A DNA stretch of 64,000 nt from Selenomonas sp. TAMA-11512. GTDB lineage: Bacteria; Bacillota; Negativicutes; Selenomonadales; Selenomonadaceae. Each line of letters opens with the position of its first letter. The stretch's first letter is position 1. Location: positions 2,216,501-2,280,500 of the forward strand of contig NZ_AP029018.1 of assembly GCF_037076525.1 (NCBI RefSeq), in the 5' to 3' direction. The notes under the pieces were generated by a model. The model was not told the origin of the DNA. It was given only the letters and a program-made list of their open reading frames with translations, and did no database searches. The position numbers and the translations under genes were made by a program. Below are positions 28,444 to 64,000 of the stretch, piece after piece.

Positions 28444-28486
28444 TTATCAACACTATATTAACAGGGTTATCAACATCTTATCCACT
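28444..28486 (+). promoter_or_regulatory. Cluster of three DnaA-box-like 9-mers
   Basis: TTATCAACA (28444-28452), TTATCAACA (28467-28475) and TTATCCACT (28478-28486) lie in one orientation; the last two are spaced exactly 11 bp, one helical turn. Each differs from TTATCCACA by one base. They sit directly upstream of the panA1 promoter in AT-rich DNA. Confidence 0.5.
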
Positions 28487-28527
28487 AAAAAATGCTCTAC
28501 ACTACGCACTATCGCGTAATGTAGAGC
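28487..28527 (-). terminator. Strong terminator ending the phage late/lysis transcript
   Basis: A 14-bp stem (GCTCTACATTACGC and GCGTAGTGTAGAGC on the minus strand, one wobble pair) with a six-base loop is followed by six T (28487-28492 on the plus strand are A). It separates the lysis genes from the Panacea pair. Confidence 0.92.
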
Positions 28528-28539
28528 CTTTTACTTTGT

Positions 28540-28827: not shown

Positions 28828-28896
28828 TTTATAAAATCTCCTTTCAGAAAGTGAAATGTATTTGAGTTTTCGATTTAATATTTCACTTTTATTTCA

Positions 28897-29424
28897 CTAA
28901 ATCATCTGCTCATAATCCGTTATCCCTCTCGCGACAGCCCTCGCAAATTCATCCTGCCGCTCTCTCAGCAGTGCTGCGTCGCCGGCATTATCAATAAACG
29001 CCAGTTCGACAAGCACCGCGGGCATATCCGTGCTTTTCAGCACCCAGAGATCCTTACGTGCTTTCAGACCGCGATCGACTGTTCCGAGGCTATCGACGAT
29101 CTGCCGTTGAATGCAGTCCCCAAGCTTCCTGCCAGCGTCGCTCCCGGGATACACGAGTACCTCCGTACCCTTTGCATTCCCGTTGAATGCGTTGCAATGG
29201 ATGCTGACGAAAATGTCCGCTCCGCTCGCGTTGGCCACACTCGTGATTGTATAGAGGTCGTCATCCTGCATGTTGCCGACGACTTCCACGCCCGCCGCTG
29301 TGAGATAGTGCTCTACGAGGTCAGCGACACTCTTTGCTACGTCGCACTCTCGGAGTCCGCAGCCGCATGCTCCGGGATCCGGAATCCCGTTCGGCGCATG
29401 GCCGGGATTTAAAAACACTTTCAT
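28897..29424 (-). CDS. N-acetylmuramoyl-L-alanine amidase (Amidase_3 endolysin)
   Basis: This 175-aa zinc amidase cleaves the bond between MurNAc and the stem peptide. Zinc ligands are visible as His9 (NPGH), Glu26 (LRECD) and His76 (SIHCNA), with the catalytic Glu in VLVELAFIDN. The ATG at 29424 is preceded by the near-perfect AAAGGAGGTGA, so the longer in-frame ORF (to 29553) is not the protein. No separate cell-wall-binding domain is present, as is common for phages of diderm hosts. No signal peptide is seen, so a holin is needed for export. Confidence 0.93.
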   Translation of the reverse strand: MKVFLNPGHAPNGIPDPGACGCGLRECDVAKSVADLVEHYLTAAGVEVVGNMQDDDLYTITSVANASGADIFVSIHCNAFNGNAKGTEVLVYPGSDAGRKLGDCIQRQIVDSLGTVDRGLKARKDLWVLKSTDMPAVLVELAFIDNAGDAALLRERQDEFARAVARGITDYEQMI

Positions 29425-29429
29425 TCTCT

Positions 29430-29567
29430 TCACCTCCTTTCCGGTCTGCACTTTTTCAAGTGCTCTTCCATTGCTCTGAGCTCCGGCACGAAGAATCCCG
29501 TTCTCGTTGCAATTGCCAAAAATGCGTAGTACTTCGACCAGAGCTCGCACCACTCAAGATTTGTCAT
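29430..29567 (-). CDS. 45-aa phage protein between holin and endolysin
   Basis: The reading frame MTNLEWCELWSKYYAF... runs to a TGA that overlaps the endolysin's Shine-Dalgarno (AGGAGGTGA). Its start lies inside the last codons of the holin gene. It has a Trp/Tyr-rich N-terminus and an amphipathic, basic C-terminus with no clear membrane segment or lipobox. I recognise no family; its place suggests a lysis accessory role. Length and composition resemble short phage proteins such as XkdX, but motifs do not match well. Confidence 0.65.
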   Translation of the reverse strand: MTNLEWCELWSKYYAFLAIATRTGFFVPELRAMEEHLKKCRPERR

Positions 29568-30027
29568 TTCCCCGCTCTCCTTTTTCGTTCTTGAGCTGTT
29601 CTAATGTATCGCATAGCTTCTGCGGCACCGGAACGCCGGAGTTTGCCGCGTTCTCGATAATTGATAGTCCTTCATTCCCGATATAGAACCAGACGATCAT
29701 CGTATGTACTGCCGATGTTCCCATTGCCGTGTCGATATAGTGCGCCAGTGCCACAATGCACAGAATAGACACCTTGCGTACAATGCCCAGTGCCCCCACT
29801 CGGCTACTTGGTCCCCTTTTGCTGTTAGGGTGTTTCCTCTTGTAGCGGTATGCTGCGAGGACGCCCGTCACATAGTCGATCGCCATCGCGACAAGCAGAG
29901 TCTCTACAAGATTATTCCACCCGAGCAAATGCCCTGCGATTCCGCCTGCGACGGAACACACCGCCCCCCATACCATCTGCATTTCCGTCGGGATCATTCC
30001 TTTTAAAAAAATCAATGCATCCTGCAT
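29554..30027 (-). CDS. Phage holin, TcdE/Holin_4 family
   Basis: This 157-aa protein has three to four hydrophobic helices: VWGAVCSVAGGIAGHLLG, VETLLVAMAIDYVTGVLAAY, VSILCIVALAHYI and an amphipathic last one, with the family pattern AIDYVTGVLAAYRYKRKHPNSKRG and IGNEGLSIIENAANSGVPVP. It permeabilises the inner membrane to release the amidase. The ATG at 30027 follows AAAGGAGA. The C-terminus overlaps the 45-aa ORF. Confidence 0.93.
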   Translation of the reverse strand: MQDALIFLKGMIPTEMQMVWGAVCSVAGGIAGHLLGWNNLVETLLVAMAIDYVTGVLAAYRYKRKHPNSKRGPSSRVGALGIVRKVSILCIVALAHYIDTAMGTSAVHTMIVWFYIGNEGLSIIENAANSGVPVPQKLCDTLEQLKNEKGERGNDKS

Positions 30028-30052
30028 ATGATCTCCTTTCCTCCGCCTTTCA

Positions 30053-30211
30053 TTATCCTTCGGCGTGTTCCGCAAGATGCATCGCAACATCTTCCCGGTA
30101 GATTGCCGGGACGACTTTCTGCCCCTCCGTTTTCTCCTCTTCGCTGTTCGCATATCTCCCCAGCCGGATGAGCTCTGCATAGATCGGAATCATAAACGGC
30201 TGCTTTTTCAT
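30053..30211 (-). CDS. 52-aa phage protein upstream of the holin (CD1375-like)
   Basis: The ORF MKKQPFMIPIYAELIRLGRY... ends 25 bases before the holin start and overlaps the preceding gene's stop by four bases. It has a good AGGAGGTG ribosome site. Its form (short, YAELIRxG followed by VPAIYREDVAMHLAE) is like the small CD1375-type proteins found between tail and holin genes in clostridial phages. The function is unknown. Confidence 0.75.
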   Translation of the reverse strand: MKKQPFMIPIYAELIRLGRYANSEEEKTEGQKVVPAIYREDVAMHLAEHAEG

Positions 30212-30543
30212 GCCTGTACACCTCCTTTCTGTGCCGACTCTATTCGTTCAACAGCTTCGTAAAGCCCGGCTACCGCTTCCAGTATTGACGCGTTTATATC
30301 TTCTGTTTTTGTATCTTCCGCCGATGTGTTGAGCACGTTGTCCGGCGGTGCGGAGACCGGCTTCCCAGACTCGCCGTCTCGAATGTAGCCGGTGCCATTT
30401 TCGCCCATGCCGTGCATTCCTACATAATGCTCCCAGTCATCCGCTGAAATCTGAATATACCCTTCCTTTTTCGCACTGCCTTGGTACGAATCCAGCAGAT
30501 GCCCTGCGTCGTCAAACAATGCTTTGTATCCTGCCTTTGCCAT
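30208..30543 (-). CDS. Phage protein of unknown function downstream of the receptor-binding protein
   Basis: This 111-aa acidic protein begins MAKAGYKALFDDAGHLLDSY, includes IQISADDWEHYVGMHGMGENGTGYI and ends with a helix (AVAGLYEAVERIESAQ). Its place directly after the receptor-binding gene suggests a tail-fibre assembly or accessory protein, but no domain is recognised. The ribosome site is AAAAGGAG. It overlaps the 52-aa ORF by four bases. Confidence 0.78.
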   Translation of the reverse strand: MAKAGYKALFDDAGHLLDSYQGSAKKEGYIQISADDWEHYVGMHGMGENGTGYIRDGESGKPVSAPPDNVLNTSAEDTKTEDINASILEAVAGLYEAVERIESAQKGGVQA

Positions 30544-30555
30544 ATTTTTCTCCTT

Positions 30556-31713
30556 TTAATTATCCGCGTACTTTGCGAGGCGCAGCCCGAGGTACGTAAG
30601 TGAGACCGTCGCGGCATAGTTCACAGCGAACGAGAACGGACCGCAGTACGTACCGTGTCCAAAACAGTCGCTCTGATGCAGCACGCTATTTGCCGCCGCC
30701 CACGCGTAATCCGCATATGTCGCGTTAACTTCCACAGCATCGGCAGTTACGGGAATAAAGACGTCTGCAAGGTCGTACGCTTCGCCTTTCGCTACGGATA
30801 CGTCCGTTATCCATCCGGCAGCTACAGTTACGTTTGTTTGCACGTATGTGCCGTCGCACGCGTTTGAGAATATCTGCGCTTTCCCCTCCGCGTCTGTTTT
30901 GAAACCGTCTGTGTGTTCCCATACGTTTCCCCACCACTCGGATAGACCGCGCCACTTCGCGTTGGACGTCCCCGTTGCGACTATCGTGCTCTGTGAACCG
31001 TTTCCGATTTCCGCTTGCATGTCTGTCGTCGCATACTCTATGAGCATGAGAAGCGAGATTGCCGCTCTCTCGTAGATTGTCTGCAAGTGCCATCCGCGTT
31101 TGTTCGGATCATTTGCATTTGTATTTCGCGCCGTGCAGCTGTTGATCGCACTTGCCAGCCCGCCGACGCTCACCCACGGTGTCTTCCCTGCCGCGCTTCC
31201 CGCTGCGCTGTCCGCGTTGTACGCTTCATACGCGCCGATGTAGAAGCAGCTCTTTTCTTCACCATTTCTGATAAACGCAGGATGCAAATGGTATCCCTCG
31301 CGCGGCTCTTTACTGATCCAGCGGCACTTGTTCTCGTACTTGTGATAGAACTTCGGAATCTTCACCATCGCCTGCCCGTCAAATGTAACCGCCTCTATCG
31401 CGTTCCACGGATAGAGCTCGTCAAAGTTTGGCCGTGGGATCATCCGGCCGGCTTTGTTGATGTGCAGCCATATGCCTGACTTCAAGCCCTCTTTCGCGAG
31501 CATGACGCCGACGACATCTTTTGCATCTTCTTTGAGTTCGTTGATGCTCTCATTAAGCGCATTCGTCTGCGCCGTGTTGAGTTCGTCAACCTCGGTCTTC
31601 GTGTACGTGTTTTCTGCGTGTACTTCTCCGAAGTATCCGGCCTTCCATTTCTTTTTCTTTGTTCCGATTGTTCCTTCGTCCATCGCACGCGGTACATAGT
31701 TTCTCGTCGCCAT
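30556..31713 (-). CDS. Receptor-binding protein with C-type-lectin (Mtd/FGE-like) variable-type domain
   Basis: This 385-aa protein has an N-terminal virion-attachment part with a coiled coil (residues ~35-75) and a C-terminal formylglycine-generating-enzyme/C-type-lectin fold: MVKIPKFYHKY, GLSEWWGNVWEHTDGF and a terminal block WAAANSVLHQSDCFGHGTYCG...YLGLRLAKYADN. That last block has the layout of the variable region of diversity-generating-retroelement (DGR) target proteins such as BPP-1 Mtd. The head genes of this phage are also BPP-1-like. No reverse transcriptase or template repeat is in the window, so diversification is unproven. Confidence 0.82.
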   Translation of the reverse strand: MATRNYVPRAMDEGTIGTKKKKWKAGYFGEVHAENTYTKTEVDELNTAQTNALNESINELKEDAKDVVGVMLAKEGLKSGIWLHINKAGRMIPRPNFDELYPWNAIEAVTFDGQAMVKIPKFYHKYENKCRWISKEPREGYHLHPAFIRNGEEKSCFYIGAYEAYNADSAAGSAAGKTPWVSVGGLASAINSCTARNTNANDPNKRGWHLQTIYERAAISLLMLIEYATTDMQAEIGNGSQSTIVATGTSNAKWRGLSEWWGNVWEHTDGFKTDAEGKAQIFSNACDGTYVQTNVTVAAGWITDVSVAKGEAYDLADVFIPVTADAVEVNATYADYAWAAANSVLHQSDCFGHGTYCGPFSFAVNYAATVSLTYLGLRLAKYADN

Positions 31714-31724
31714 TCTCTTCCTCC

Positions 31725-32435
31725 TTATTCCTTCGGCATGATATCGCCGTTCTCGTCGAGCTCGTAGTTGACATCGTAAATCGGCTCTTCGCTCGGCATA
31801 ATGTCGCCGTTTATGTCTACTTCGAAGAAGTCGATTTTAGCGACATTGATTGCATCAGTCACCTTCTTCACGTACTCGAGCAGCTTCGTCTCCGCTTCCA
31901 CAGCGTCTCGCAGTTCTTTCGATGTCGCAAGCGCTTCTGCCGCCGTATTCGCGGCGCCCTCCACTTTTTCCGACGCGCTCTCTGCACGTCTGGCAAACAT
32001 TTCCGCGTCTTCGCTCCCGCGCTTCAGGCGCTCGAAGAGCTCATCCGGAGAAGTCTCACTGACATAAGTTGTCTTGATACACCGTTCCAGTGCTTCCTCC
32101 TGCTCCTGCGTTATCTGCGTCAGCTTGTCCAACGAAGCTTCTATGGTCTCTGGCCACGCACCGCCTTGATTCGTGAGGTCGGCAAGCTGAGTCTTTTCCG
32201 TTACCCGATAGATTGTGATCATCTCTCCCACAGCAAGCGCCGGAGCCTCATTGAACTTGGGGTAGGTTAAGGTCAATGCGCCGGTATCTACCGTAAAATC
32301 GGTCTGAGCAATGACCGTGTCCTCTCCAAGCACAGCATAAATCTGATTTTTGTCTGTAAAGGCAAAGGTGATGGGGAAGGTCCTTGTAAGGCCGTTCCCG
32401 TTATACGTAGCCTTTACCTTAAGATTACTTATCAT
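31725..32435 (-). CDS. Tail-fibre/tailspike adaptor (T7 gp17 N-terminal-like)
   Basis: This 236-aa protein has the podoviral fibre-anchoring domain (GNGLTRTFPITFAF, TDFTVDTGALTLTYP, ITIYRVTEKTQLADLTNQGG, ETIEASLDKLTQITQEQEEALERCI; residues 10-120), then a long coiled coil (120-200) and a short C-terminal duplication of NGDIMP. It likely attaches the receptor-binding protein encoded next to the tail. It overlaps the giant protein gene by four bases. Confidence 0.82.
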   Translation of the reverse strand: MISNLKVKATYNGNGLTRTFPITFAFTDKNQIYAVLGEDTVIAQTDFTVDTGALTLTYPKFNEAPALAVGEMITIYRVTEKTQLADLTNQGGAWPETIEASLDKLTQITQEQEEALERCIKTTYVSETSPDELFERLKRGSEDAEMFARRAESASEKVEGAANTAAEALATSKELRDAVEAETKLLEYVKKVTDAINVAKIDFFEVDINGDIMPSEEPIYDVNYELDENGDIMPKE

Positions 32436-53168: not shown

Positions 53169-53927
53169 TTAATTAAACCGCCACCAATACACCAACCATG
53201 CAATAAAATCAATGATAATGATCAGAAAAATTACTGTGTTGATTGTTTCTATCTGTTTAGCGTTTTCGTCTCTTTCAAGTTCGTAACCTCTATTGATTCG
53301 CTGAATGAATCTCAGTAAAAGATTTACCAAATTAAAGAGCCCTAATCCAACTATAGCAATGATAAGTATTAATCTATATATAGACGCTTTATCTATATTA
53401 CCCAATATAGACGTAGAAAATGCCATTCCTGCTACAAAAGTAATCACGATAGATGAAAATATTCCAAGAATCGTAATGTACTCCCTTTGCATAGACCTTT
53501 GCGCCTGTTCAGCCTCATCTTTCATGGCTTTTAACTGATAGCTCATATTCTCATGCTTATTCTTGAGCTCATTCGCGATATTACGTGTATACGCTATACG
53601 TGCAATATCAAGATTAACATGATCATACAATTTTGCAATCTTTTTACAAAGAGTATCGTCTATTAACCCACCATTTCCATTCTCTTCAATCGCTTGTTTA
53701 TACAACGCTTGAATATTTCTGGATAAAATATCGAGACCGTCCGGACTCTTCCCATCAATCCGCGTAATGATTCCAAACACTTCCGAGTATAGGTGTCGAA
53801 AATCATCCGAGTAAATATACTGTAATTTTCGTATACATTCTTCAAACACTCCACGCTCACTTATCTTAGCGTCTTCTTTAGCAAGATCTTTCAAGAATCC
53901 TTGGAGTTTCATCTGTTTATCATGCAT
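53169..53927 (-). CDS. Membrane effector paired with Panacea protein 2 (candidate toxin)
   Basis: This ~252-aa protein has a soluble helical part (residues 1-145) and three strongly hydrophobic C-terminal helices: ITILGIFSSIVITFVAGMAF, YRLILIIAIVGLGLFNLVNL and TVIFLIIIIDFIAWLVYWW. Between helices 2 and 3 is a charged cytoplasmic loop. The ATG at 53927 overlaps the Panacea stop by eight bases (ATGCATGA). The DNA is markedly more AT-rich than the phage structural genes, which suggests recent acquisition. Panacea partners include membrane-acting toxins; membrane depolarisation is my inference. I know no named family. Confidence 0.72.
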   Translation of the reverse strand: MHDKQMKLQGFLKDLAKEDAKISERGVFEECIRKLQYIYSDDFRHLYSEVFGIITRIDGKSPDGLDILSRNIQALYKQAIEENGNGGLIDDTLCKKIAKLYDHVNLDIARIAYTRNIANELKNKHENMSYQLKAMKDEAEQAQRSMQREYITILGIFSSIVITFVAGMAFSTSILGNIDKASIYRLILIIAIVGLGLFNLVNLLLRFIQRINRGYELERDENAKQIETINTVIFLIIIIDFIAWLVYWWRFN

Positions 53928-54387
53928 ATTTAGCAATCACAGCCTTTGGTATAATTTCCTTATTACCCAAACCACCCCGATAAATACGATCCCATGGTTT
54001 CCCCTGCTCATGCGTTGCATTAACAAGCTCCCATACTTTTATGTTACGCTTATCTGCAACGATATTGTTCATCACCGCTATCTCATCATCACTAAACGAA
54101 ACATTCGGTTCATCTGTTTCATAGATTTCCGTAGAACCGTAACCACAGTAGCGCATGTATACATCACGCACGACCGGACCAAATGTCCACGCTTCTATTT
54201 CATCAGAAAACAATGCCTTGTTTTTCTTTTGAAGAAACTCTGCCTGAATGTAATATAAAATTTTTTGTAACTGTAAGTTGCTAATTGGATTTCCATCCAA
54301 TGCACATTTTCGAATCAAATATTGTGCAACATCAACAGCGGAGTATTCCCCTGAATAATCCGGAGAATTGTTAAGAAACCAGAACAT
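53920..54387 (-). CDS. panA: Panacea-domain (DUF4065/SocA-like) antitoxin, pair 2
   Basis: This 155-aa protein has the Panacea core: VAQYLIRKCALDGNPISNLQLQK, ILYYIQAEFLQKKNKALFSD, IEAWTFGPVVRDVYMRYCGYG and LVNATHEQGKPWDR. It shares the domain with panA1 but is otherwise dissimilar, so they are not a recent duplication. AAAGGAGGAG lies seven bases before the ATG. It is placed between the late regulator and packaging genes, a usual place for phage morons. No clear consensus promoter was found upstream. Confidence 0.9.
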   Translation of the reverse strand: MFWFLNNSPDYSGEYSAVDVAQYLIRKCALDGNPISNLQLQKILYYIQAEFLQKKNKALFSDEIEAWTFGPVVRDVYMRYCGYGSTEIYETDEPNVSFSDDEIAVMNNIVADKRNIKVWELVNATHEQGKPWDRIYRGGLGNKEIIPKAVIAKYA

Positions 54388-55097: not shown

Positions 55098-55472
55098 TCA
55101 AACAGGACGTCCCGTCTTCAAATCATACAACTTAGTATCCGTTCCATATGTGACAGATTTTGCATACCCATGCTTATCTGCCCATTCTTGAAAGACTTTT
55201 GTGAGCATATCACTCAGTTCATCCAGCTCCGGTTTCTCCGGATCCGCAAGATCAACATGGATACTTTCTTCATCCAATTGACATTGCATGTCTTCAATGA
55301 GTTCTTCGCCCCTCACTCGAAGCTCGAACTCTTCTTCTTTCCAGATGTAGACAGTCTCATCTTCATCCGCGTTTTTTCTTGCATCATCCAAAGCCTCTTC
55401 GACGCTTGAAAAATAAAACCGTGCTCGCTCTCCGTCTTCGTTGAAGCTGTACAAGTACAGTTCATCATCCAT
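55098..55472 (-). CDS. Acidic phage protein, paralogue A (flanks ssb)
   Basis: This 124-aa, strongly acidic protein shares with the protein at 55,865-56,260 the pattern Y-x-Y...DG.....F.(S/T)(V/I)E(E/D)AL..AR.N....TVYI....EF and, at the C-terminus, VFxEWAxxxG....YDLxT..P. Both flank ssb in the same operon. No known domain is recognised. High acidity suggests a DNA-mimic or inhibitor, but this is a guess. Confidence 0.8.
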   Translation of the reverse strand: MDDELYLYSFNEDGERARFYFSSVEEALDDARKNADEDETVYIWKEEEFELRVRGEELIEDMQCQLDEESIHVDLADPEKPELDELSDMLTKVFQEWADKHGYAKSVTYGTDTKLYDLKTGRPV

Positions 55473-55487
55473 TTCGATTCACTCCCT

Positions 55488-55868
55488 TCAAAACGGAATA
55501 TCTTCGTCCGACACTGCCGTCCCCGCGAACTCTCCTGTGCTCGCCGACTGCCCGCCATGCCCTCGCGGTTTCTCACCGAAATCCACTTCACGCGCCAAAA
55601 TCTCAATGACGCTTCGATTCTGCCCGTCTTTCTCATATGTGCGCTGCGTGAGCTTGCCCGAGACAGCCACCTTCTGCCCCTTGACGAGATTATTCCCGCA
55701 CGATTCTGCGAGCCCTTCCCAGCAGACGATGGGGAAGAAATACGTCTTTTTCTTGTCTCCCCAGCCGTCGTCTATCGCTACCGTAAACGACGTGACCGCC
55801 TTTCCGCTCTGCGTATAGCGTGCCTCCGGGTCTTTCGTGAGCCGCCCGACAATTACACATGTGTTCAT
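55488..55868 (-). CDS. ssb: Single-stranded DNA-binding protein
   Basis: This 126-aa SSB has an OB fold starting MNTCVIVGRLTKDPEARYTQSGKAV and FPIVCWEGLAESCGNNLVKGQKVAVSGKL, a Gly-rich linker and the acidic tip DEDIPF that recruits host partners. It overlaps paralogue B by four bases (ATGA). It serves phage replication and ERF-mediated annealing. Confidence 0.95.
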   Translation of the reverse strand: MNTCVIVGRLTKDPEARYTQSGKAVTSFTVAIDDGWGDKKKTYFFPIVCWEGLAESCGNNLVKGQKVAVSGKLTQRTYEKDGQNRSVIEILAREVDFGEKPRGHGGQSASTGEFAGTAVSDEDIPF

Positions 55869-56260
55869 GATACACCCTCCGCCGGCTTTTCAGTCCTCAA
55901 GTCATACAGAACGCAATTCTCCTCGTCTGGAACATCTATCCAGTACTCAATGCCGCGCTCTTTCGCCCACTCTATGAATACTTCTTGAAGCGCATCGCCG
56001 AGCACTTCTCTATCATTCTTTGACACATTGTCAAGATATCCCTCATAGCTGCCCGCGCATTCATTGTCGACGGCTTCCTGCAAGTCTTCTATCAGTACGT
56101 CGTGCCAGATAGATGGAACGAATTCATTTGTCTCTGTGATATATACCGTCTTTTCCATCGGCTCATTCGCTCTCGCCGTTTCGAGAGCGTCTTCTATCGT
56201 CTCAAAGCCCGTGTAATAGCCGTCGTCGTGCGGGTACATATACGCGTATCTTCTTTTCAT
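55865..56260 (-). CDS. Acidic phage protein, paralogue B (flanks ssb)
   Basis: This 131-aa protein is a diverged homologue of the 124-aa protein at 55,098-55,472 (shared VYI....EF, LIEDxQ..(V/L)D.E and VFIEWAKERG....YDLRT blocks). It is acidic, with no recognised domain. It lies between the helicase-methyltransferase and ssb and overlaps both by four bases. A gene duplication around ssb is implied. Confidence 0.8.
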   Translation of the reverse strand: MKRRYAYMYPHDDGYYTGFETIEDALETARANEPMEKTVYITETNEFVPSIWHDVLIEDLQEAVDNECAGSYEGYLDNVSKNDREVLGDALQEVFIEWAKERGIEYWIDVPDEENCVLYDLRTEKPAEGVS

Positions 56261-58788
56261 GATACAGACCTCTCTTTCCCCTCGTCCTCGATAAAGTCAA
56301 AGAGCGTCGGTGCACTGCGTTTCTGCTCTTCTACTTTGAGATATCCGACACCGTCTCTGAAATAATCCGGATTCAGCTCCGTTGCCATGCCGCGCCGTCC
56401 GAGTTTCAAAGCGCAAATCGGAACGGTCATCAGCCCGCCAAATGGGTCAAAGACCATGTCGCCCTCGTTGCTGTACCGCTCAATGAGCCGCTCTACAATG
56501 TCGAACTGTAACGGGCACACATGCAGCTGCTTGCCCTTTTGCGCCTGCAATGTGTTCATCGTCCGCATGCGGTTGATGTCGTCCCAGACTTCATCCGTCC
56601 AGCTCCCCGGAGCGACAACCATGAACGTCGCCGGCAGCTTTCTGTCTTTGTCGAGCTTCTCCGCCATTTCGACGTGCTCTTTGTAGTCATAGACGCTTTC
56701 GCGGCTGTACTTGCGATAGACGCGCTGGAGGTCGGTCACCGGGAATTTCATGACTTCTTCTTTCGTGAGAGGTCTGTCTCCGCTGCTCCGCCAGTAGCCG
56801 TGCGCGTCAATCTGCCAGCGTCCGCGCGTATAATCCTCTTTGCTCTTCTTGACGGGCGTATCCGCATACGCTTTGGATGTATCTGTCGGCAGCTTGCGGA
56901 ACAGCAGAATGTATTCCGGGCACCCGACACCCATCTTGCTTCCGTCCTTGCACTGCTCTGTCCATCCGAGTCGGTACGTCTGATTGTTCTCACGCACGAC
57001 GTCCGTCACGACGGTAATCATGCCGAAATACTGAAATCCGTGCTTCATGTAGTGTTCGATGCAGAGCGCATGGAATGGCTCGATGGTCGGCATTCCCGTT
57101 CCCGTCGCATTGCCAAATAGCACGCGATCCTTGACATGGCACGCAAACACCCGGCCGGGCTTTAAGATACGCAAGAGCTGCGGGCTTAGATAGTCCATCT
57201 GCTCAAAGAATCGCGCTGTATCTTCGTTGTGACCGAAGTCGTTGTAACTCGCCGTGTACTCGTAATGATTCGAGAACGGAATAGACGTCACAATCTCATC
57301 GACGGAGTTCTCTTTCATCTGCTTTGTCTCTTCGATGCAGTCATTGTGTATAGCTGTCCATCCTTCGCCTTTTACTTCCACACGCATCACTCCTATGCTT
57401 CGTCCCATCTCAGCGGCCGCATTCGCGCCGCCTAGCCCATACTCTTTGATAATATCCGCCATCTTCTGCGCCAGCTTGTTGTATTGCGTCCACTTGCGCT
57501 GTAAGACCTTCAAAATTTCCTGCTCACTGTCCATGTAGATAATGTCCACAACGACCTTCTCCGGCTGTAAGAAGCGATGACAACGATGAATCGCCTGTAT
57601 AAAGTCGTTGAACTCATAGTCAATGCCTAAGAATATCATCCGATGACAATGCCGCTGGAAGTTGCACCCACTCCCGGAGAGCTCTTTCTTCGTCGCAAGC
57701 AGTCGAAATTTGCCGTCAGAAAAGTCGATCGTGTTCTTCTCTCGTATGTCCATGTCCTGCGAACCGTAGATTTCCTTCGCCTCCGGCAACGCCCTCTTGA
57801 TTGCCTGACGCTCTGCCTCGAGGTCATGCCAGATGATGAAGTGATCCTCCGGCGCTTCGTCGACAATCTGCTTCGCTTTCGCCATCCTCGCATCGATACT
57901 CTTGCGCTTCTCATACGCAGCTTCTTTGAGCCCGTGCGCGGCGTCTTGAAATATCTTGATCTGTCCGTCTTTCTCTTCCGTGAGCTCTGCCGGACGTCCG
58001 AGCTTATGATAGCGCACCTCGAGTTCGGGCAGGTCGTAGCCCGTATCGTCATAGCCGAGGTTCGACGGCTTCTGGATAAAGAGCGCCCACGTCGAGAGCC
58101 ATAACCAGAACTCTTTTTCCTTGTGCGGATAGAGCGTCAGATTATTCGCCTTTGTACTGTCGCGTTTGAAAAACCGGGTAAGCGCGAGTCCCGTATCCAT
58201 GATCTCAAGATAGCCCGCATAGTGAATGAGCTCCTTGTACTTGTTCGGCGATGGCGTCGCTGTAGATACCAGCTTATACGGCACGCCGCGAAACTTCGCA
58301 AGAAACGTCTGATATGTCTTGCTTCCGAAAGAGCGCAATACCGCCGCCTCGTCAAGACTCGTCCCCGAGAATGCATCCGGTCGGATGTCTCCATCACGGA
58401 TACGCTCATAGTTCGTTATCATGAGCCAGCCTGATGTAGCCTCCACCTCCGCCATGTTGCGGACGTAGACAGGCGCGTCTATGTGCAGAAGCATTTCCGC
58501 GTCGCGCATAAACTCTTGTTTTACGCCCAGCGGGCAAACGATGAGCATCTTCCCGCCTTTGTGCTCGTGTATGAGTCGGCACCATTCGAGCTGCATGATT
58601 GTCTTGCCAAGCCCGAAAGCAGCGAAGATTGCCCTGCGCCCGCCACGAACTGCCCACATGACCGCGTCTTTCTGGTGCGGCTTTAGAATATCGCTGATTT
58701 CTTCTCTCGCGATGTCAATGCCCGTTTTCTTTGCAATAACCATTTTCGACTTCAAAAAGCCGATATAGTCCTTTTCCATTCCACTCAC
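56257..58788 (-). CDS. Fused SNF2-type helicase and DNA methyltransferase
   Basis: This 843-aa protein has an N-terminal superfamily-2 helicase: Walker A FGLGKT (58-63), a LDEAA motif II (145-149), and QAIHRCHR motif VI (398-405). The C-terminal part is a beta-class N4/N6-type methyltransferase with motif order IV then I: motif IV reads SIPF (502-505) in place of (D/N/S)PP(Y/F), and the SAM motif is VFDPFGG (779-785) followed by GRRGMATELN. It lies in the early operon. It may modify phage DNA against restriction, with the helicase acting as a translocation or replication-coupled module. No restriction nuclease domain is seen. Confidence 0.85.
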   Translation of the reverse strand: MSGMEKDYIGFLKSKMVIAKKTGIDIAREEISDILKPHQKDAVMWAVRGGRRAIFAAFGLGKTIMQLEWCRLIHEHKGGKMLIVCPLGVKQEFMRDAEMLLHIDAPVYVRNMAEVEATSGWLMITNYERIRDGDIRPDAFSGTSLDEAAVLRSFGSKTYQTFLAKFRGVPYKLVSTATPSPNKYKELIHYAGYLEIMDTGLALTRFFKRDSTKANNLTLYPHKEKEFWLWLSTWALFIQKPSNLGYDDTGYDLPELEVRYHKLGRPAELTEEKDGQIKIFQDAAHGLKEAAYEKRKSIDARMAKAKQIVDEAPEDHFIIWHDLEAERQAIKRALPEAKEIYGSQDMDIREKNTIDFSDGKFRLLATKKELSGSGCNFQRHCHRMIFLGIDYEFNDFIQAIHRCHRFLQPEKVVVDIIYMDSEQEILKVLQRKWTQYNKLAQKMADIIKEYGLGGANAAAEMGRSIGVMRVEVKGEGWTAIHNDCIEETKQMKENSVDEIVTSIPFSNHYEYTASYNDFGHNEDTARFFEQMDYLSPQLLRILKPGRVFACHVKDRVLFGNATGTGMPTIEPFHALCIEHYMKHGFQYFGMITVVTDVVRENNQTYRLGWTEQCKDGSKMGVGCPEYILLFRKLPTDTSKAYADTPVKKSKEDYTRGRWQIDAHGYWRSSGDRPLTKEEVMKFPVTDLQRVYRKYSRESVYDYKEHVEMAEKLDKDRKLPATFMVVAPGSWTDEVWDDINRMRTMNTLQAQKGKQLHVCPLQFDIVERLIERYSNEGDMVFDPFGGLMTVPICALKLGRRGMATELNPDYFRDGVGYLKVEEQKRSAPTLFDFIEDEGKERSVS

Positions 58789-58835
58789 CTACTTCGCAAT
58801 TAGCCCGCGCATGACCGCGCTGTATCTTCCGTAGC

Positions 58836-59105
58836 TCATCCTATTCCGACCTCTCGAAGAATCTCAGCAACAACTCTTTCTTGATCGGAAATATAATCTT
58901 CGTCACGAAATACATAATCCGTATCTCTTTCTGCAATACTCTCAAGATTATTCAAAATATCACGGTCAAGCCCGAGACGTTCGCTAATATCTAATGCTTT
59001 TTGAAGCCGCTCTAGATTTCTCGCCGTCGGATCGTAAAGTGTCTCCGCTACGAGCTTGGCAATTTTAGAGAAAATCACTCTATCCTCTGCTGTCATTGTT
59101 GCCAT
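58836..59105 (-). CDS. Small phage early protein of unknown function
   Basis: This 89-aa acidic, all-helical protein (LVAETLYDPTARNLERLQKALDISERLGLD) starts at an ATG that shares bases with the stop of the DUF1064 gene, with GGGAGGTG five bases upstream. No family is recognised. It belongs to the early operon. Confidence 0.75.
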   Translation of the reverse strand: MATMTAEDRVIFSKIAKLVAETLYDPTARNLERLQKALDISERLGLDRDILNNLESIAERDTDYVFRDEDYISDQERVVAEILREVGIG

Positions 59106-59533
59106 CACCGCACCTCCCGAAACACGATATCCGTATCTTTCATCGCGTATAGAAACAGCTTTTTTCGCAGCATATAGTCTCGCGTGCGCACGCCCTTGAC
59201 CTCAATAACCTCCGAATGACCATCGGCAAATGTAACAAAGAAATCCGCCGTGTACTTGATCGGTCTCTGCTTCTTGCCCTCGTTGTCCGTAAAGCCCTCA
59301 AGAAGCGTGTACTCCGGCTGAAACCCTATGCGGACAATCTCCCCCGCTTGCTTGCGTGCCAGCAGATCGAGATAGATTTCCGCCTCTCTCTTGCTGTCGA
59401 ACGTGTGCTTTCCGACGACGGTCTTTCTTGCGTTATACTTGTTCTTTTTCTGCGCCCGCAAGAGCCGCATCACGTTACTGATTGCTTTCTTTGCCGTTGG
59501 GTCTTTCTTCTTGCATGGCGTGTATTCCGTCAT
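59105..59533 (-). CDS. DUF1064-family phage nuclease-like protein
   Basis: This 142-aa protein has KYNARKTVVGKHTFDSKREAEIYLDL, IGFQPEYTLLEGF, IKYTADFFVTFADG and SEVIEVKGVRTRDYMLRKKLF. The E...D...E-x-K pattern is that of PD-(D/E)XK endonucleases, and the DUF1064 family is common in replication blocks of Firmicute phages. Resolution of branched DNA is a reasonable inference. Confidence 0.85.
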   Translation of the reverse strand: MTEYTPCKKKDPTAKKAISNVMRLLRAQKKNKYNARKTVVGKHTFDSKREAEIYLDLLARKQAGEIVRIGFQPEYTLLEGFTDNEGKKQRPIKYTADFFVTFADGHSEVIEVKGVRTRDYMLRKKLFLYAMKDTDIVFREVR

Positions 59534-59545
59534 AGTCTCGCCCCC

Positions 59546-59866
59546 TCAGAAGTAACCTCGCGAATTGTTCTTCTCGTTTACGAACTCCTGCATCTCCCGA
59601 CGCTTTTCGAGATCATATCCGAGAATCTCCATGGCCGTGGTTGCCGCTGTGATGACGTCCGTCAGCTCCTCCGCCATCCTGTCTTTCGTCTCCCTGTGCA
59701 GATAGCACATCTCGCGCCACACAAGCCGGCACTCACGGAGCTCTTCTTCGACTCGTACGAGCTGATAAAAGACCTGGTAGAACAGCTCTTTATCGCCATT
59801 CTCGAGCTCCACCTGCTTCATGCACGGCATCGGCTCCCACGGCTCTTGCTTCATGTTCCCATTCAT
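59546..59866 (-). CDS. MazG-like nucleotide pyrophosphohydrolase-family protein
   Basis: This 106-aa helical protein has ENGDKELFYQVFYQLVRVEEEL and MAEELTDVITAATTAMEILGYD, the EExxD type of MazG-like folds. The C-terminus NEKNNSRGY is also typical. It may clear modified or damaged dNTPs or alter (p)ppGpp levels. AGAGGTGA precedes the ATG at 59866, which lies 77 bases inside the preceding short ORF. Confidence 0.78.
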   Translation of the reverse strand: MNGNMKQEPWEPMPCMKQVELENGDKELFYQVFYQLVRVEEELRECRLVWREMCYLHRETKDRMAEELTDVITAATTAMEILGYDLEKRREMQEFVNEKNNSRGYF

Positions 59867-59990
59867 CGATTCTCACCTCTTCGCCGTAATAGATCATCAT
59901 TCGCTCGTCTGTTGCTGTCTTGAATCTCTCCACACGTTCACGCATCCGCGGAGAAATTGCCGACAGTTCTTGAAGCAAGTCTGTTGTCAT
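59790..59990 (-). CDS. 66-aa phage ORF overlapping the MazG-like gene
   Basis: This ORF (MTTDLLQELSAISPRMRERVERF...) has AGAAGG about eight bases upstream and overlaps the MazG-like start by 77 bases in another frame. Its last 25 codons are also the MazG-like ribosome site and N-terminus. It could be a translated coupling peptide. Function unknown. Confidence 0.5.
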   Translation of the reverse strand: MTTDLLQELSAISPRMRERVERFKTATDERMMIYYGEEVRIDEWEHEARAVGADAVHEAGGAREWR

Positions 59991-60190
59991 ATCATGCGCC
60001 TTCTCTTAACACAGAATTTCTTCTTCGGTCGCTGATAAATTTGTTCATTTTCCGTTACCTCGAACGATTCTCTTTCCAGTACTTCTGCCGCAAATAGCTC
60101 CAGATATTCATGACCATAGTCCATCGTTCGGATGTAGTTCAAAACCGTCTCTACAACACAAATTGCTTTCTCAACGCTTACCGCTTTCAT
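59987..60190 (-). CDS. Small phage early protein of unknown function
   Basis: This 67-aa protein (MKAVSVEKAICVVETVLNYIRTMDYGHEY...KKKFCVKRRRMI) has GAGGGAGG before the ATG at 60190 and overlaps the DnaC-like gene's end by four bases. It has an amphipathic helix and a basic C-terminus that could bind nucleic acid. No family recognised. Confidence 0.75.
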   Translation of the reverse strand: MKAVSVEKAICVVETVLNYIRTMDYGHEYLELFAAEVLERESFEVTENEQIYQRPKKKFCVKRRRMI

Positions 60191-61071
60191 GCTATAACCT
60201 CCCTCTTGCTTTTCACACGATAGTCTTCGCCTTGAATTTCTACACGCTCGCACATGTCGTATAGGCGGCTCATGATTCTCTGCCCTTGCATGTCGTCACC
60301 ATTCGCCGACATGCGCTTGATAATTTCCGCGGGGCTGTAGTTGCTCGTGACGATCGTCTGTAGCCGTCCGTTATATCTGTGATTGACGATGTTAAAGAGC
60401 TGTTCACCCACCCACTCCGTCATGCGTTCTGCCCCCAGATCGTCAAGAATCAAGAAAGGCGCGTTCTTGACGGCATCCACAAGCTCCGGTGCATTCTTGC
60501 TGTCATAAGCGTTTCGCATGTCCGCTAAAAGATCCGGTACCGATACGAACAAGACAGGTTCTCTCTCTTTGATACGAGCGTTGGCAATAATCGCTGCGAG
60601 CTTCGTCTTTCCCGTACCACGCTTGCCGTAGAGAAATAAGCCCTTCTCCCCTTTTAGTACCCAACGTGCAGCGTCCACCGCTTTTTTGTTAAATGCCGTG
60701 ACCTCGTAATTTTCAAACGTGTCAGACGCATACACCGTCGGCACACGGGCGGAAGAAAAGAGCCGCTGACTCTTCGCCTCACGCCTTCTCTCCTGCTCAT
60801 ATCTGCATAGAGCTGTACCATACGTGAAGTACCCGTCCTTGTCGTTGACGACCGGAATAAACCCCTTGACCGGCTGCTTGCACGTTGTACCGTCACACCC
60901 TCTGCACTTGTCTTGTTCTCGCTCTATCTCGACAATTTCAGCTCGATGCAGAGTCAGCTCATTCTCCGTGAGATTGTACTTCCCACGGATGGACATGGTT
61001 TCGATCGGCTTCGACGAAATCGCTATACCGCGCTTCAAGAGCCGCGCGGCTATTGTCCCTGCCTGTTCCAC
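60187..61071 (-). CDS. DnaC-like helicase loader (AAA+ ATPase)
   Basis: This 294-aa protein has Walker A GKRGTGKT (149-156), Walker B FLILDDLGAE and SNYSPAEI (sensor 1), typical of DnaC/DnaI loaders. The N-terminal domain has a cysteine set (Cys56, 59, 64 and 89) that could bind zinc or an Fe-S cluster, as in DnaI. It starts at GTG 61071 behind AGGAGGTGA and overlaps the initiator gene by 113 bases. It loads the replicative helicase at the phage origin. Confidence 0.9.
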   Translation of the reverse strand: MEQAGTIAARLLKRGIAISSKPIETMSIRGKYNLTENELTLHRAEIVEIEREQDKCRGCDGTTCKQPVKGFIPVVNDKDGYFTYGTALCRYEQERRREAKSQRLFSSARVPTVYASDTFENYEVTAFNKKAVDAARWVLKGEKGLFLYGKRGTGKTKLAAIIANARIKEREPVLFVSVPDLLADMRNAYDSKNAPELVDAVKNAPFLILDDLGAERMTEWVGEQLFNIVNHRYNGRLQTIVTSNYSPAEIIKRMSANGDDMQGQRIMSRLYDMCERVEIQGEDYRVKSKREVIA

Positions 61072-61759
61072 TTTGTCTCACCTCCTGTTTCAGCGGGTAG
61101 AATGTCTTCCATCCGTTCATGACTGCCTCATCGACAATGACAATCTTCTCCTCGTCGGTACTTGCCAGACTATCCAGCTTAGAGAGGCTCAACCGCATCG
61201 CCCGTTCCGTCAACGGAGACTTTTTGCCATTCCGCATTTCGATAAATCCAGCAAGGGATTCTCTAAGAGCGGGATTATCGGTGTAGGAATTCAAAAGAGC
61301 GGCGACAGCTTTTTCTTTTGGATTCTTTTTTGTCATTGTCTTAGTCATTGTCTCTTGTCTATATATGTGTGCAGTTTGCGGTGCAGTATTTGATGCACTT
61401 TCTAATGCAGTTTGCGGTGCAGTATTCAGTGCAGTATTCAGTGCAGTATTCAGTGCATTTAATGCACCCTTTTCTTCACACATATCATTCAGACGATAGA
61501 GCGTCGGTTGACCTTTTTTCCCCTGCTTGAAATCGATGAACCCCAATCTTTTCAGGAGGTTTCGGTTCTCAATGAGAGTATGGGCACTACTGAGTCCGAC
61601 TTCTAACATTAGTCTCTGATTTGTCGCCCCGAACCATTCCGTCCAGCCGGCGCGGTTGTTTATGAGAAACAGCCTAAAATAAAGCGCTTGGGCTACGGGC
61701 GGGACTAATCCCACGCTAGAATCAGAGTAAGATTTTAGAAGTGTCATATACTGCCGCAT
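60959..61759 (-). CDS. Phage replication initiator with internal origin repeats
   Basis: This 266-aa protein has an N-terminal winged-helix replisome-organiser domain (VGLVPPVAQALYFRLFLINNRAGWTEWFGATNQRLMLEVGLSSAHTL..GFIDFKQGKKGQPTLYRL), a repeat-coded linker rich in ALNT, and a C-terminal helical part with LAGFIEMRNGKKSPLT. It is followed by a DnaC-like gene. The linker is encoded by eight 12-bp repeats, the arrangement of an initiator carrying its own origin, as with lambda O. Confidence 0.87.
   Translation of the reverse strand: MRQYMTLLKSYSDSSVGLVPPVAQALYFRLFLINNRAGWTEWFGATNQRLMLEVGLSSAHTLIENRNLLKRLGFIDFKQGKKGQPTLYRLNDMCEEKGALNALNTALNTALNTAPQTALESASNTAPQTAHIYRQETMTKTMTKKNPKEKAVAALLNSYTDNPALRESLAGFIEMRNGKKSPLTERAMRLSLSKLDSLASTDEEKIVIVDEAVMNGWKTFYPLKQEVRQSGTGRDNSRAALEARYSDFVEADRNHVHPWEVQSHGE
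61369..61464. repeat. Eight 12-bp iterons inside the initiator gene (probable phage origin)
   Basis: Eight contiguous 12-mers in strict register run from 61369: consensus GTGCAGTATTCA (three exact copies at 61417-61452), with variants GTGCAGTTTGCG, GTGCAGTATTTG, ATGCACTTTCTA, ATGCAGTTTGCG and GTGCATTTAATG. An AT-rich stretch with the direct repeat GTCATTGTCT lies at 61333-61360. The 12-bp unit keeps the reading frame (four codons). Confidence 0.88.
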
Positions 61760-61763
61760 ACGT

Positions 61764-62447
61764 TCACCTCCCTTTCAGCCGATACACCTTCGCAATCCGC
61801 TCATCAATCTGCACAGGCTCAAGAATGTACTTTTTCAAGAAGTCCTCTCGCCCTGTCGAGTGAATTTCTATGTGATGCTCTCGACAAAGCGGCAGAGCCC
61901 GCATACCGATATGACATATCTCTTTTCGATTGCGCCCCATGCCGACTGCATCCACATGATGCAGCTCTGCTTTCCGACCGCACACGGCACATTTCTTGTT
62001 TATTAGACAAGAATATACATACCGTGCTACATCCTCACAATTTTCGATCAGCGGAACATGCGTCGGGATGTCATTCTCTATGATGAAATCTACAAGAAAA
62101 TTGATAAATTCTCTCGCTGTAGTCACATCACAGTTCGAAAGAGAGAACAGTCGTCTCTCCATCCCCTCCATGCGGGAAAGCATGAACTCCATCTTCAACG
62201 TGCGCTTGGCACTCTCGATCGTTCCTGCATTACGAATACCGTCAACATACTCCGCAACTTCCCCGATCAGTGCGTACACTTTGCGACGTTGCTCCGGAGA
62301 TATGCGTCTGCCATCCGGCAGGATAATCTCAACGCTTCTGTATTCCCGTAAGAGTGCCCGGTCAAGGCTAGGGAGAGCGGCGTGTATGACCGCTGTCCCA
62401 TCCTCCATAATGTCCTTGACCGCACCCATCATGTGCTCCTGAATCAT
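61764..62447 (-). CDS. Putative HNH nuclease-like phage protein
   Basis: This 227-aa protein has a C-terminal HNH-type motif with zinc cysteines: CAVCGRKAELHHVDAVGMG and ALPLCREHHIEIHSTG. The N-terminal part is alpha/beta and of unknown role (Phage HNHc family). It lies between ERF and initiator genes, suggesting a recombination or replication-linked nuclease. Confidence 0.85.
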   Translation of the reverse strand: MIQEHMMGAVKDIMEDGTAVIHAALPSLDRALLREYRSVEIILPDGRRISPEQRRKVYALIGEVAEYVDGIRNAGTIESAKRTLKMEFMLSRMEGMERRLFSLSNCDVTTAREFINFLVDFIIENDIPTHVPLIENCEDVARYVYSCLINKKCAVCGRKAELHHVDAVGMGRNRKEICHIGMRALPLCREHHIEIHSTGREDFLKKYILEPVQIDERIAKVYRLKGR

Positions 62448-63082
62448 GCCGCGCCTACGTGAATAGCTGCGAGACTTGCCGTGAGCTTTTTCAGCTCCTC
62501 CACTGTGAGCTCACGAGAAGAGTCTTTGTCAAACATCTTCCGGCAAATCTTTGTGACTTCTTCCTTCGTCGCATTCAGCCGATGCATCTCTTCTGTGAGA
62601 GCCCGCAGCGCCGTCCGTACATCCTCCGTCGAATCTTTTGGCGGCGAATGCTCCTCACGCCTCGAAGATTGCCCCTGCCGCGTGTATTCGTCCGTGTCAG
62701 CATCCTTGGCATCATCAATACCAAAGAGCGCGTTCAAGGCGTATTTGCGGGCGTAAGAAGAGGTTGCCCCCGTCACCTGCGCCACGTCAACGCCTTTTTT
62801 CTCCACCTGCTCACGGGCGTATGCCGTCGCGCTTTCCGTATCCCCCGTCGCGATGTCCACCACCGTGACCGTTGCCTTGATGTAGTAGCGGTCACCGATC
62901 AGCTCTACACTGTCCGAAATGCGGAGATATAATCCATTATCTTTGAGAAGCGGCTTGACTGCCTCCAAAATATCCTCCGCGCTTCGGTAGTTGTAGTTAC
63001 CGAAAGTGTTCTTTTGCCCCTTCGGCGCTTTCAATTCACTCTGCACCGCCATCAGTGCGGCGTAAATTGCCTTGCCGGCCAT
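62444..63082 (-). CDS. erf: ERF-family single-strand annealing recombinase
   Basis: This 212-aa protein has KAPKGQKNTFGNYNYRSAEDILEAVKPLLKDNGLYL, the annealing core, and GATSSYARKYALNALFGIDDAKDAD, the ERF signature. The ATG at 63082 has GAGGTGA six bases upstream. It anneals ssDNA at replication forks, probably with SSB. It overlaps the HNH gene by four bases. Confidence 0.92.
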   Translation of the reverse strand: MAGKAIYAALMAVQSELKAPKGQKNTFGNYNYRSAEDILEAVKPLLKDNGLYLRISDSVELIGDRYYIKATVTVVDIATGDTESATAYAREQVEKKGVDVAQVTGATSSYARKYALNALFGIDDAKDADTDEYTRQGQSSRREEHSPPKDSTEDVRTALRALTEEMHRLNATKEEVTKICRKMFDKDSSRELTVEELKKLTASLAAIHVGAA

Positions 63083-63092
63083 GTGTATCACC

Positions 63093-63554
63093 TCACTTGA
63101 TCTGTATGCTCTGACGCTCGACAAGTTCCGCCCCAGCTATGACGGCCCCATTCTTGAGTGCCGCGAGAATGCCTGACCTATCAATCTTGTCCGGCTGCGG
63201 AATCCTGTACTCTGCAGGAATTGCCGCCTCGTCCGTGATCTCCGTTGCTGTGGACTTTCGAAAGCCTATCTGATATTCCGCAGCCTTGACCGGCTTTCCG
63301 TCGAGATATGCGGCGAGATAGTTTTTCAGACCCTCCGCCTTGTTCTTCGCCGCCTTCTCACGAGCTGCGAATACATCCTTTTGTTCTTTAAGAGCTGCCG
63401 ACTCTGCATTGAGCTCCTTAATCCAGCAAGCGATGTTTCGGATTTTCTTCGACTTTTCCATGTTGAGCGCATCGAGTTTTTCTGCGTCGATGATTTCGCC
63501 AGTCTCCATGTCTACGCATGAGAGAATTTCCGCGTCAATTTCAAATAGATTCAT
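63093..63554 (-). CDS. Siphovirus Gp157-family protein
   Basis: This 153-aa protein starts MNLFEIDAEILSCVDMETGEI and ends RKSTATEITDEAAIPAEYRIPQPDKIDRSGILAALKNGAVIAGAELVE, which matches Gp157. These proteins often sit next to ERF and may protect phage DNA or replication. The ATG at 63554 has AAAGGTGG upstream. Confidence 0.88.
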   Translation of the reverse strand: MNLFEIDAEILSCVDMETGEIIDAEKLDALNMEKSKKIRNIACWIKELNAESAALKEQKDVFAAREKAAKNKAEGLKNYLAAYLDGKPVKAAEYQIGFRKSTATEITDEAAIPAEYRIPQPDKIDRSGILAALKNGAVIAGAELVERQSIQIK

Positions 63555-63797
63555 GATGCAAGCGCCACCTTTCTGATCGTGCTCATATCTCTGCTGTGTG
63601 TGCTCCATGTCTTATACACCTTGCCGCCAGAATAGAAAGCGTAGTAATCGAAGGTGACAAGCTCATCGAAGCGAACTCCATAGTACGTTTGTTGAATCCT
63701 GAAATCCCCTTTTCCACGACGCATGACAGATGACAACAGCGTCATGCTGCCCTTGTATCTGTGCTCATCGTCTATGATTTTTTGGATTCTCCTCGGT
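63551..63797 (-). pseudogene. Phage early gene truncated by ISLre2
   Basis: Only the last ~82 codons remain, ending ...TWSTHSRDMSTIRKVALAS; the reading frame continues upstream into the IS element by chance. The remnant overlaps Gp157 by four bases, so it was the upstream gene of the early operon. Its 5' part should continue to the right of the IS copy. I do not recognise its family. Confidence 0.85.
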
Positions 63798-64000
63798 GTA
63801 AGTGTAAAATAGTTCTCGGAGGGGGTTGCAAAAAGAGAAAGAGACCAGTACCCTAAAGTGTATGCTAACGAGGCGAATACACAAGAAGGAAGGTCTCTTA
63901 TGGAAACTATTGTAACAGAAATCCTGGAAATAATAAAGGGTACAAAAGACAATATCTCACAAGAAGAACAACTGCGCAGTTACTTTGAGATCCTGATATG
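63798..64000 (+). mobile_element. Second ISLre2 copy, left end (runs off window)
   Basis: From GTAAGTGTAAAATAG to the window edge this copy is identical over 203 bp to the element at 23,210. It lies in the same orientation and inserts into a minus-strand phage gene. The last nine bases before it (63789-63797) should recur at its other end if the duplication is intact. Confidence 0.92.
63900..64000 (+). CDS. ISLre2 transposase, N-terminal part (second copy)
   Basis: The first 33 codons (METIVTEILEIIKGTKDN...) are identical to those of the first copy and follow the same AAGGAAGG signal. The rest lies outside the window. Confidence 0.9.
   Translation, partial: METIVTEILEIIKGTKDNISQEEQLRSYFEILI

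Follow-up and report, generated by a model that had tools for sequence, protein, structure and literature searches.

The fusion gene and its product

Selenomonas sp. TAMA-11512 carries, in a 64,000-nucleotide stretch of its chromosome (NZ_AP029018.1, positions 2,216,501 to 2,280,500; here called the window), a prophage gene whose product, as judged from sequence, is an SNF2-type motor joined to a beta-class DNA amino-methyltransferase. An earlier note had described a single-chain superfamily 2 (SF2) helicase plus methyltransferase here, with no nuclease domain and with SIPF in place of the usual SPPY/F at methyltransferase motif IV. The 843-aa open reading frame (ORF) was confirmed at window positions 56257-58788; it lies on the minus strand and starts with GTG, and the plus-strand reading of the same segment contains many stop codons. 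The single-chain architecture was borne out by Pfam, PHROG_16 and structure models alike. Both the Pfam matches and the structure-model matches place the helicase N-terminally and the methyltransferase C-terminally. Residues 27-837 aligned to positions 265-929 of PHROG_16 (E 5.9e-134), that is, to nearly the full length of a 986-position profile whose name, ‘DNA helicase’, mentions the helicase only. The protein is thus a further member of the PHROG_16 fusion family, whose domain combination has been annotated before for many phages and described in print.

In Pfam the methyltransferase part was recognized as N6_N4_Mtase (PF01555; residues 496-811, E 2.4e-16, 60.8 bits against a cut-off of 26.7), and the motor part matched SNF2-rel_dom (residues 38-188, 23.3 bits) and Helicase_C (residues 335-406, 22.0 bits) slightly under their cut-offs of 24.9 and 23.5, respectively. 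A profile built from 58 relatives found the Sulfolobus SNF2 structure 1z63 with its first half (E 1.3e-14) and TTHA0409 of Thermus thermophilus (2zie) with its second (E 1.1e-16). The motor motifs are FGLGKT (58-63), DEAA (146-149), TATP (176-179) and QAIHRCHRFLQ (398-408), within which K62, D146, E147, R402, R405 and Q408 are invariant in a 58-row alignment. A full-length model (predicted local distance difference test score, pLDDT, 77.2; predicted template modelling score, pTM, 0.66) superimposed on the SNF2 remodeller INO80 (7zi4) with Z 29.4 over 368 residues at 2.9 A; Z scores of 24-25 were also reached with other SF2 enzymes. No nuclease family was present among the five Pfam families listed for the protein, in keeping with the earlier description. 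A spurious ORF was ruled out by the Pfam matches, the PHROG_16 match and purifying selection. As to a type I or type III restriction enzyme, the same five families included no nuclease, and the adjacent genes encode a single-strand DNA-binding protein (SSB), a DUF1064 protein and proteins of unknown function. Membership in a host restriction system was also rejected, as copies lie in two prophages and full-length copies are absent from 58 of the 59 other genomes of related bacteria.

Motif IV and the methyltransferase fold

In beta-class enzymes motif IV comes first, followed by the middle region, motif X and motif I, and (S/D/N)PP(Y/F) is the usual form of motif IV, although that form by itself is not defining. 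The fusion protein follows the beta-class order, with SIPF at 502, HVCPLQ at 756 and DPFGG at 781. Aligned with TTHA0409, SIPF falls opposite SPPY and DPFGGLMT opposite DPFAGTGT. The core of motif IV is intact, S502, P504 and F505 being invariant in the 58-row alignment, but the strict (S/D/N)PP(Y/F) form is absent: position 2 deviates here and in all 107 distinct members of what we call the SxPF clade. Among 109 distinct fused proteins (108 from 122 full-length loci after removal of identical ones, plus the window protein), the motif was SIPF in 102, SVPF in 3, SWPF in 2 and SPPF in 2, the last being the sister-clade proteins L125 and L127. Across a larger set of 363 loci the fused proteins had SIPF (188), SPPF (107), SVPF (4) or SWPF (2), and the split forms SPPF (54) or SIPF (1, which may be a frameshift), with one unread.

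In a tree of 111 methyltransferase domains all 43 SxPF rows fell on one side of a branch with support of 100, and the grouping persisted when the columns of both motifs were left out; these were ‘quick’ trees, with support from the Shimodaira-Hasegawa-like approximate likelihood ratio test (SH-aLRT) only. Therefore a switch between SPPF and SxPF needs one change: the SxPF clade and its SPPF sister clade are one change apart, and the tree gives no direction to it. A second departure is found in the FxGxG motif, the second G of which is M in the fusion protein (FGGLMT) and is variable within the clade (FGGLMT 32, FGGIGT 16 and FGGLFT 13 of 109). The earlier remark on SIPF thus holds as to its presence at residues 502-505; within its clade, where 102 of 107 distinct members have it, the motif is standard. 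By these alignments SIPF is the normal form of its clade, out of the ordinary only against the general SPPY/F rule, and is not a defect. A sequencing error or a degenerate motif was rejected as its origin, given that SIPF is the rule in the clade.

Evidence that the methyltransferase is competent

Besides the motif IV residues, D781, F783, G785 and E804 of the methyltransferase are invariant in the 58-row alignment (alignment A1 leaves out the intein-holding relative L110). Both domains are under purifying selection. The ratio of nonsynonymous to synonymous substitution rates (dN/dS) was below 0.3 in every pair of relatives with unsaturated dS; many dS values were saturated, and those pairs were excluded. 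Pairs with dS below 1 (e.g., L040-L097, L071-L073 and L019-L045) had values that ranged from 0.08 to 0.29 in the helicase and from 0.05 to 0.15 in the methyltransferase, and the methyltransferase value was the lower in 12 of the 13 listed pairs in which both values were unsaturated.

A model of the methyltransferase domain (pLDDT 84.7, pTM 0.83) found its best match in 2zif, TTHA0409 with S-adenosylmethionine (SAM), at Z 24.0 over 228 residues, 2.6 A and 28% identity, followed by M.BceJIV (Z 23.9), the N4-cytosine enzyme M.PvuII (Z 22.4) and CcrM (Z 22.4). The structural support consists of such fold matches. Conserved catalytic residues, purifying selection and a model resembling SAM-bound enzymes together make an active methyltransferase far more probable than an inactive one. 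That SIPF could signal a pocket without catalysis is not borne out, given the invariance of S502, P504 and F505 and the match to SAM-bound beta-class enzymes at Z of about 24.

Distribution of fused and split forms

Relatives occur in 324 of 50,697 phage records, all at less than 60% identity, and 304 of them cover at least 80% of the query. The hosts of these records include Mycobacterium (146), Flavobacterium (85), Arthrobacter (27), Pseudomonas (23) and others. A single-sequence scan of IMG/VR gave 115 loci, of which 80 were kept, and a profile scan confirmed at least 594 loci of at least 600 matches. In bacterial genomes 37 of 49 candidate stretches were confirmed, the named organisms including Bacillota, Bacteroidota and Pseudomonadota. 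Among 60 genomes including the host, a full-length copy was found in the host and in one other only (70%). Plasmids matched in 18 of 72,556 records, 6 with at least 80% coverage. The records call these relatives ‘DNA helicase/methylase’ or ‘DNA helicase/methyltransferase fusion protein’. The fusion is therefore not rare but belongs to a widespread, annotated phage family, and the novelty implied by the earlier note falls away: Pacc40 gp60 is in print in a passage of PMC11855218, and PMC5512222 argues for helicase-methylase coupling as a means by which phages counter restriction.

The 363 loci comprised 301 fused and 56 split forms, 5 with the methyltransferase part only and 1 with the helicase part only; since the set includes contigs fetched twice and 12 records picked partly as split, 301:56 is not a natural frequency. 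A family tree of fused and unfused forms, which the earlier note had proposed, was drawn from the same 111 rows. On it the SxPF proteins form one clade, and the fused or split state changes 10 times with all columns and 8 times without the two motif stretches, the starred branches alone forcing fewer changes than these. Within the phage genus Cheoctovirus, a fused gene (Job42, Sarma624) and a two-gene form (Whouxphf gp63 and gp64, Ramsey gp65 and gp66) lie directly behind the same HNH gene. The two-gene form has the same two activities at the same locus, but in separate genes, at about 29% identity and with canonical SPPF and FAGIGS motifs. Because joining and splitting have recurred with the partners kept together, we infer that the motor and the methyltransferase work together.

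Comparison with known systems

Close named counterparts are Job42 gp69 and Sarma624 gp65 of F1 mycobacteriophages, which cover 98% of the query at about 56-57% protein identity. Pacc40 gp60, which is 94.9% identical to Job42 gp69 at the DNA level, shares with these two the full-length architecture and the motif IV of the fusion protein, and a passage of PMC11855218 describes it as a helicase domain followed by a methylase domain. In Job42, in Pacc40 and in a betaproteobacterial prophage of Duganella sp. OV510 (L110), an intein sits exactly before the Cys that matches invariant C758, i.e., at H-V|C758, a placement that fits a working enzyme. Pacc40 also has a second insertion, reported in the same part of PMC11855218 as a hidden HNH gene; the fusion protein lacks both. 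Inteins, according to a section of PMC9957025, typically invade conserved regions of conserved genes. Mycobacteriophages and the Duganella prophage have this intein at the same residue, and RefSeq names the intein-bearing mycobacteriophage proteins (Job42, L120; Pacc40, L372) ‘anaerobic ribonucleoside reductase large subunit’. PMC9957025 deals mainly with a family (Dorothy_75, PopTart_63, ShiLan gp65) that resembles this one at first sight but was rejected as the same, since a passage of PMC11855218 puts Pacc40 gp60 in a different pham with poor alignment to ShiLan gp65.

TTHA0409 (2zie, 2zif, 2zig), the best structural match of the methyltransferase part, differs in being a stand-alone methylase with SPPY and FAGTGT and no helicase. 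A SWI2/SNF2 ATPase coupled to a DNA methylase is likewise found in DarB of phage P1 and in the ‘DNA methylase-helicase dyad’ of polyvalent proteins, and the portion of PMC5512222 that deals with such couplings in phages and plasmids, as a single chain or as neighbours, reads them as counter-restriction. In the DarB type, on the same account, the methyltransferase precedes the helicase and is an EcoKI/TaqI-like adenine methylase, and the protein has an LPD36 domain and is a virion component. The fusion protein was rejected as a DarB orthologue or DarB-type dyad since domain order and methyltransferase class differ (LPD36 was not searched for by name). By analogy it perhaps works like DarB, though not a member of that group. 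An assayed prophage m4C methyltransferase, treated in part of PMC4936722, is a stand-alone and different protein, and in the open-licence literature searched we found no assay of any member of the fusion family.

The prophage setting

PHROG matches around the gene include the small and large terminase subunits, a head-tail adaptor, and Erf, Mu Gam-like, O-like, DnaC-like, SSB and DUF1064 proteins (Table 1). By these matches the fusion gene is in a prophage and in its early replication/recombination block.

Table 1. Positions in the window of the fusion gene, its parts and the neighbouring early genes
Feature	Position	Strand	Basis
Helicase-methyltransferase fusion gene, 843 aa, GTG start	56257..58788	-	ORF, Pfam, PHROG_16; identical protein in second prophage, same chromosome
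SNF2-type ATPase part, ~residues 20-450	57439..58731	-	Pfam, motif alignment, model vs SNF2 remodellers Z 29.4
Beta-class amino-methyltransferase part, ~residues 466-826	56311..57393	-	Pfam, alignment, model, structural matches
Motif IV SIPF, residues 502-505	57274..57285	-	Aligned to SPPY of TTHA0409
Most conserved stretch of fusion protein, residues 597-650	56839..57000	-	Mean pairwise identity 0.79, 58 rows
Candidate target-recognition region, residues 651-745, not hypervariable	56554..56838	-	Mean pairwise identity 0.53, 58 rows; role inferred from position
H756-V757-C758-P759; intein of some relatives inserts directly before Cys	56512..56523	-	Alignment
SAM-binding FxGxG-like motif I, DPFGGLM, residues 781-787	56428..56448	-	Clade alignment, TTHA0409 alignment
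SSB	55488..55868	-	phrog_44, E 4.5e-43
DUF1064, resolvase-like	59105..59533	-	phrog_190, E 1.8e-42; PF06356
DnaC-like helicase loader	60187..61071	-	phrog_50, E 5.4e-57
Replication initiation O-like protein	60959..61759	-	phrog_678, E 2.3e-17
Erf-like annealing protein	62444..63124	-	phrog_155, E 2.1e-52
Mu Gam-like end-protection protein	63093..63608	-	phrog_253, E 7.2e-35

A second copy of the gene lies at 940414-942942 of the same chromosome (2.59 Mb, one contig) and encodes an identical protein. Window positions 55470-62009 form a 6.5-kb block shared with that second prophage (about 937-944 kb) at 98.7% identity, and the remainder is mosaic. The two gene copies differ at 10 of 2529 bases, all of them silent third-position differences within codons 782-826; the first 2.3 kb are identical. 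Such a pattern is as after recent exchange.

The analysis of the relatives' neighbours started from 226 ORFs, 112 upstream and 114 downstream, and covered 98 and 93 of them, respectively, along with 4 window proteins; the minus-strand ones and two more were dropped. The families seen upstream and downstream were SSB (4 and 2), C5 DNA methylase (4 and 6) and RusA (2 and 2), with DUF1376 in 5 downstream; RecT, RdgC, DnaB, VRR_NUC and the DNA polymerase beta clamp were among the further families. No dedicated restriction enzyme was seen among the Pfam families listed for these 98 and 97 proteins (25 of 34 and 25 of 44 families), and the generic ResIII helicase model matched 3 of the proteins.

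The candidate recognition region and the modified base

The candidate target-recognition region, with its mean pairwise identity of 0.53, is to be compared with the C-terminal core at 0.58 and the N-terminal core at 0.65, the borders of the regions having been drawn by hand. Within it, residues 681-700 dip to 0.33, which leaves room for some target diversity. Methyltransferases matched to their hosts are expected to vary most in the recognition region, and the conservation seen here, the least expected of the observations, hints that one shared target fits better than mimicry of each host; it is no proof, since the region is only a candidate and dips at 681-700. By the general rule a motif IV of the Ser type goes with N4 of cytosine and not with N6 of adenine, and the modification is accordingly probably N4-cytosine.

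Proposed role and alternatives

We favour, with somewhat more than even confidence, an orphan, motor-assisted phage DNA methyltransferase whose SNF2 ATPase would carry the methyltransferase to its sites, so that phage DNA would be modified and would escape restriction. The replacement of the first Pro of motif IV by Ile would be tolerated, leaving a working pocket, because the position contributes mainly backbone contacts. As the Ser-type motif suggests, the product of the enzyme would be N4-methylcytosine. The motor would move along duplex DNA, bringing the methylating part to its sites, and phage DNA made during replication would thereby be modified. The phage would benefit mainly by evading restriction, whether in its current host or in the next; the role is probably anti-restriction. 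Translocation-coupled modification or anti-restriction, as the earlier note suggested, is still the most economical reading.

Several findings tell against this proposal. The two genes stand apart in many phages, so the fusion itself is dispensable. Conservation of the candidate recognition region is close to that of the core, a poor fit to site-for-site mimicry of varied host systems. The fold gives no choice of base, N6-adenine and N4-cytosine enzymes being tied at Z 22-24. And the full-length model falls below pLDDT 50 at several places within the middle of the methyltransferase (597-611, 668-675, 696-703, 720-723 and 727-740).

The strongest competitor, though we think it unlikely, is that the protein is first of all a replication or recombination enzyme, the SNF2 motor remodelling intermediates and methylation, by marking phage or new DNA, serving timing or packaging and not defence against restriction. 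The gene does lie among SSB, DUF1064, DnaC, O-like and Erf genes, the neighbours of its relatives include SSB, RusA, RecT, RdgC, DnaB, VRR_NUC and the DNA polymerase beta clamp, a helicase-only distant relative occurs in Streptococcus phage Javan628, and the candidate recognition region is not diversified. An early-region position is, however, usual for anti-restriction genes as well, and the gene is patchy, with a full-length copy in only 1 of 59 other genomes near the host.

A bolder form of the anti-restriction proposal is a motor-driven broad-host hypermethylase, which we regard as rather doubtful. On this view one short or loose cytosine target would be common to all SxPF proteins, whose phages span at least four bacterial phyla, and the SNF2 motor would sweep the enzyme along phage DNA as it replicates. 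Phages would gain a general protection that is not host-matched, and the Pro-to-Ile change in motif IV would alter, throughout the clade, the way the base is held.

Improbable in our view is a host-specific mimic that methylates the sites of particular host restriction systems in the manner of a classic stand-alone phage methyltransferase. The host chromosome has four matches to PF02384 (type I methylase) at about 1.64, 1.79 and 2.05 Mb, three long and one a short piece, so that the host itself probably encodes restriction systems. Host mimicry is also the common explanation of orphan phage methyltransferases, as a section of PMC9957025 notes. The presumed recognition region, on the other hand, is about as conserved as the core in 58 members ranging down to 51% identity with the fusion protein; where hosts are named for them, they are Bacillota, Bacteroidota and Pseudomonadota, and actinophage members align over the same stretch.

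Still less credible is a loss of catalysis, with a degenerate methyltransferase retained solely to bind DNA for the helicase. Two motif positions do depart from the usual form, namely the first Pro of SPPF and, in most of the clade, the second G of FxGxG. Motif IV nevertheless keeps its Ser, second Pro and Phe without exception, D781, F783, G785 and E804 are invariant too, and the variable G is still G in part of the clade (FGGIGT, 16 of 109). In addition, dN/dS is lower in the methyltransferase than in the helicase in 12 of 13 usable listed pairs, and the methyltransferase model matches SAM complexes well. A DarB-like virion protein, injected with the DNA and protecting it in cis against type I restriction, is the least credible of all: the two activities are the same and DarB protects P1 DNA in cis, but the DarB type has the opposite order, an EcoKI/TaqI-like adenine methylase and LPD36 (all from the same part of PMC5512222), whereas the fusion protein is a helicase followed by a beta-class methyltransferase, with no further Pfam domain listed in its 843 aa and its gene in an early module.

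The window gene is in itself an ordinary find, a further example of an annotated and very common phage protein, and any interest it may have is that of the family as a whole, with its many hosts, its repeated joining and splitting with the partners together and its conserved presumed recognition region. The target of one member would suggest a target for hundreds of phages.

Other features of the window

Downstream of the fusion gene, and close to it, the SSB gene stands between the genes for two proteins of the unknown family phrog_1672 (55098-55472 and 55865-56260, minus strand). A SocA/Panacea-type antitoxin-like gene (53920-54387, minus strand) overlaps the gene for a 255-aa protein of unknown function (53169-53936, minus strand), a possible toxin-antitoxin pair. 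A further stretch, 27395-32139, is common to the second prophage at 92-98% identity. Finally, a UPF0236-family element is present in two copies, at 23210-24777 and at 63798-64000, the latter running past the window end; both match a third copy, located near the other prophage, at 99.0% identity.

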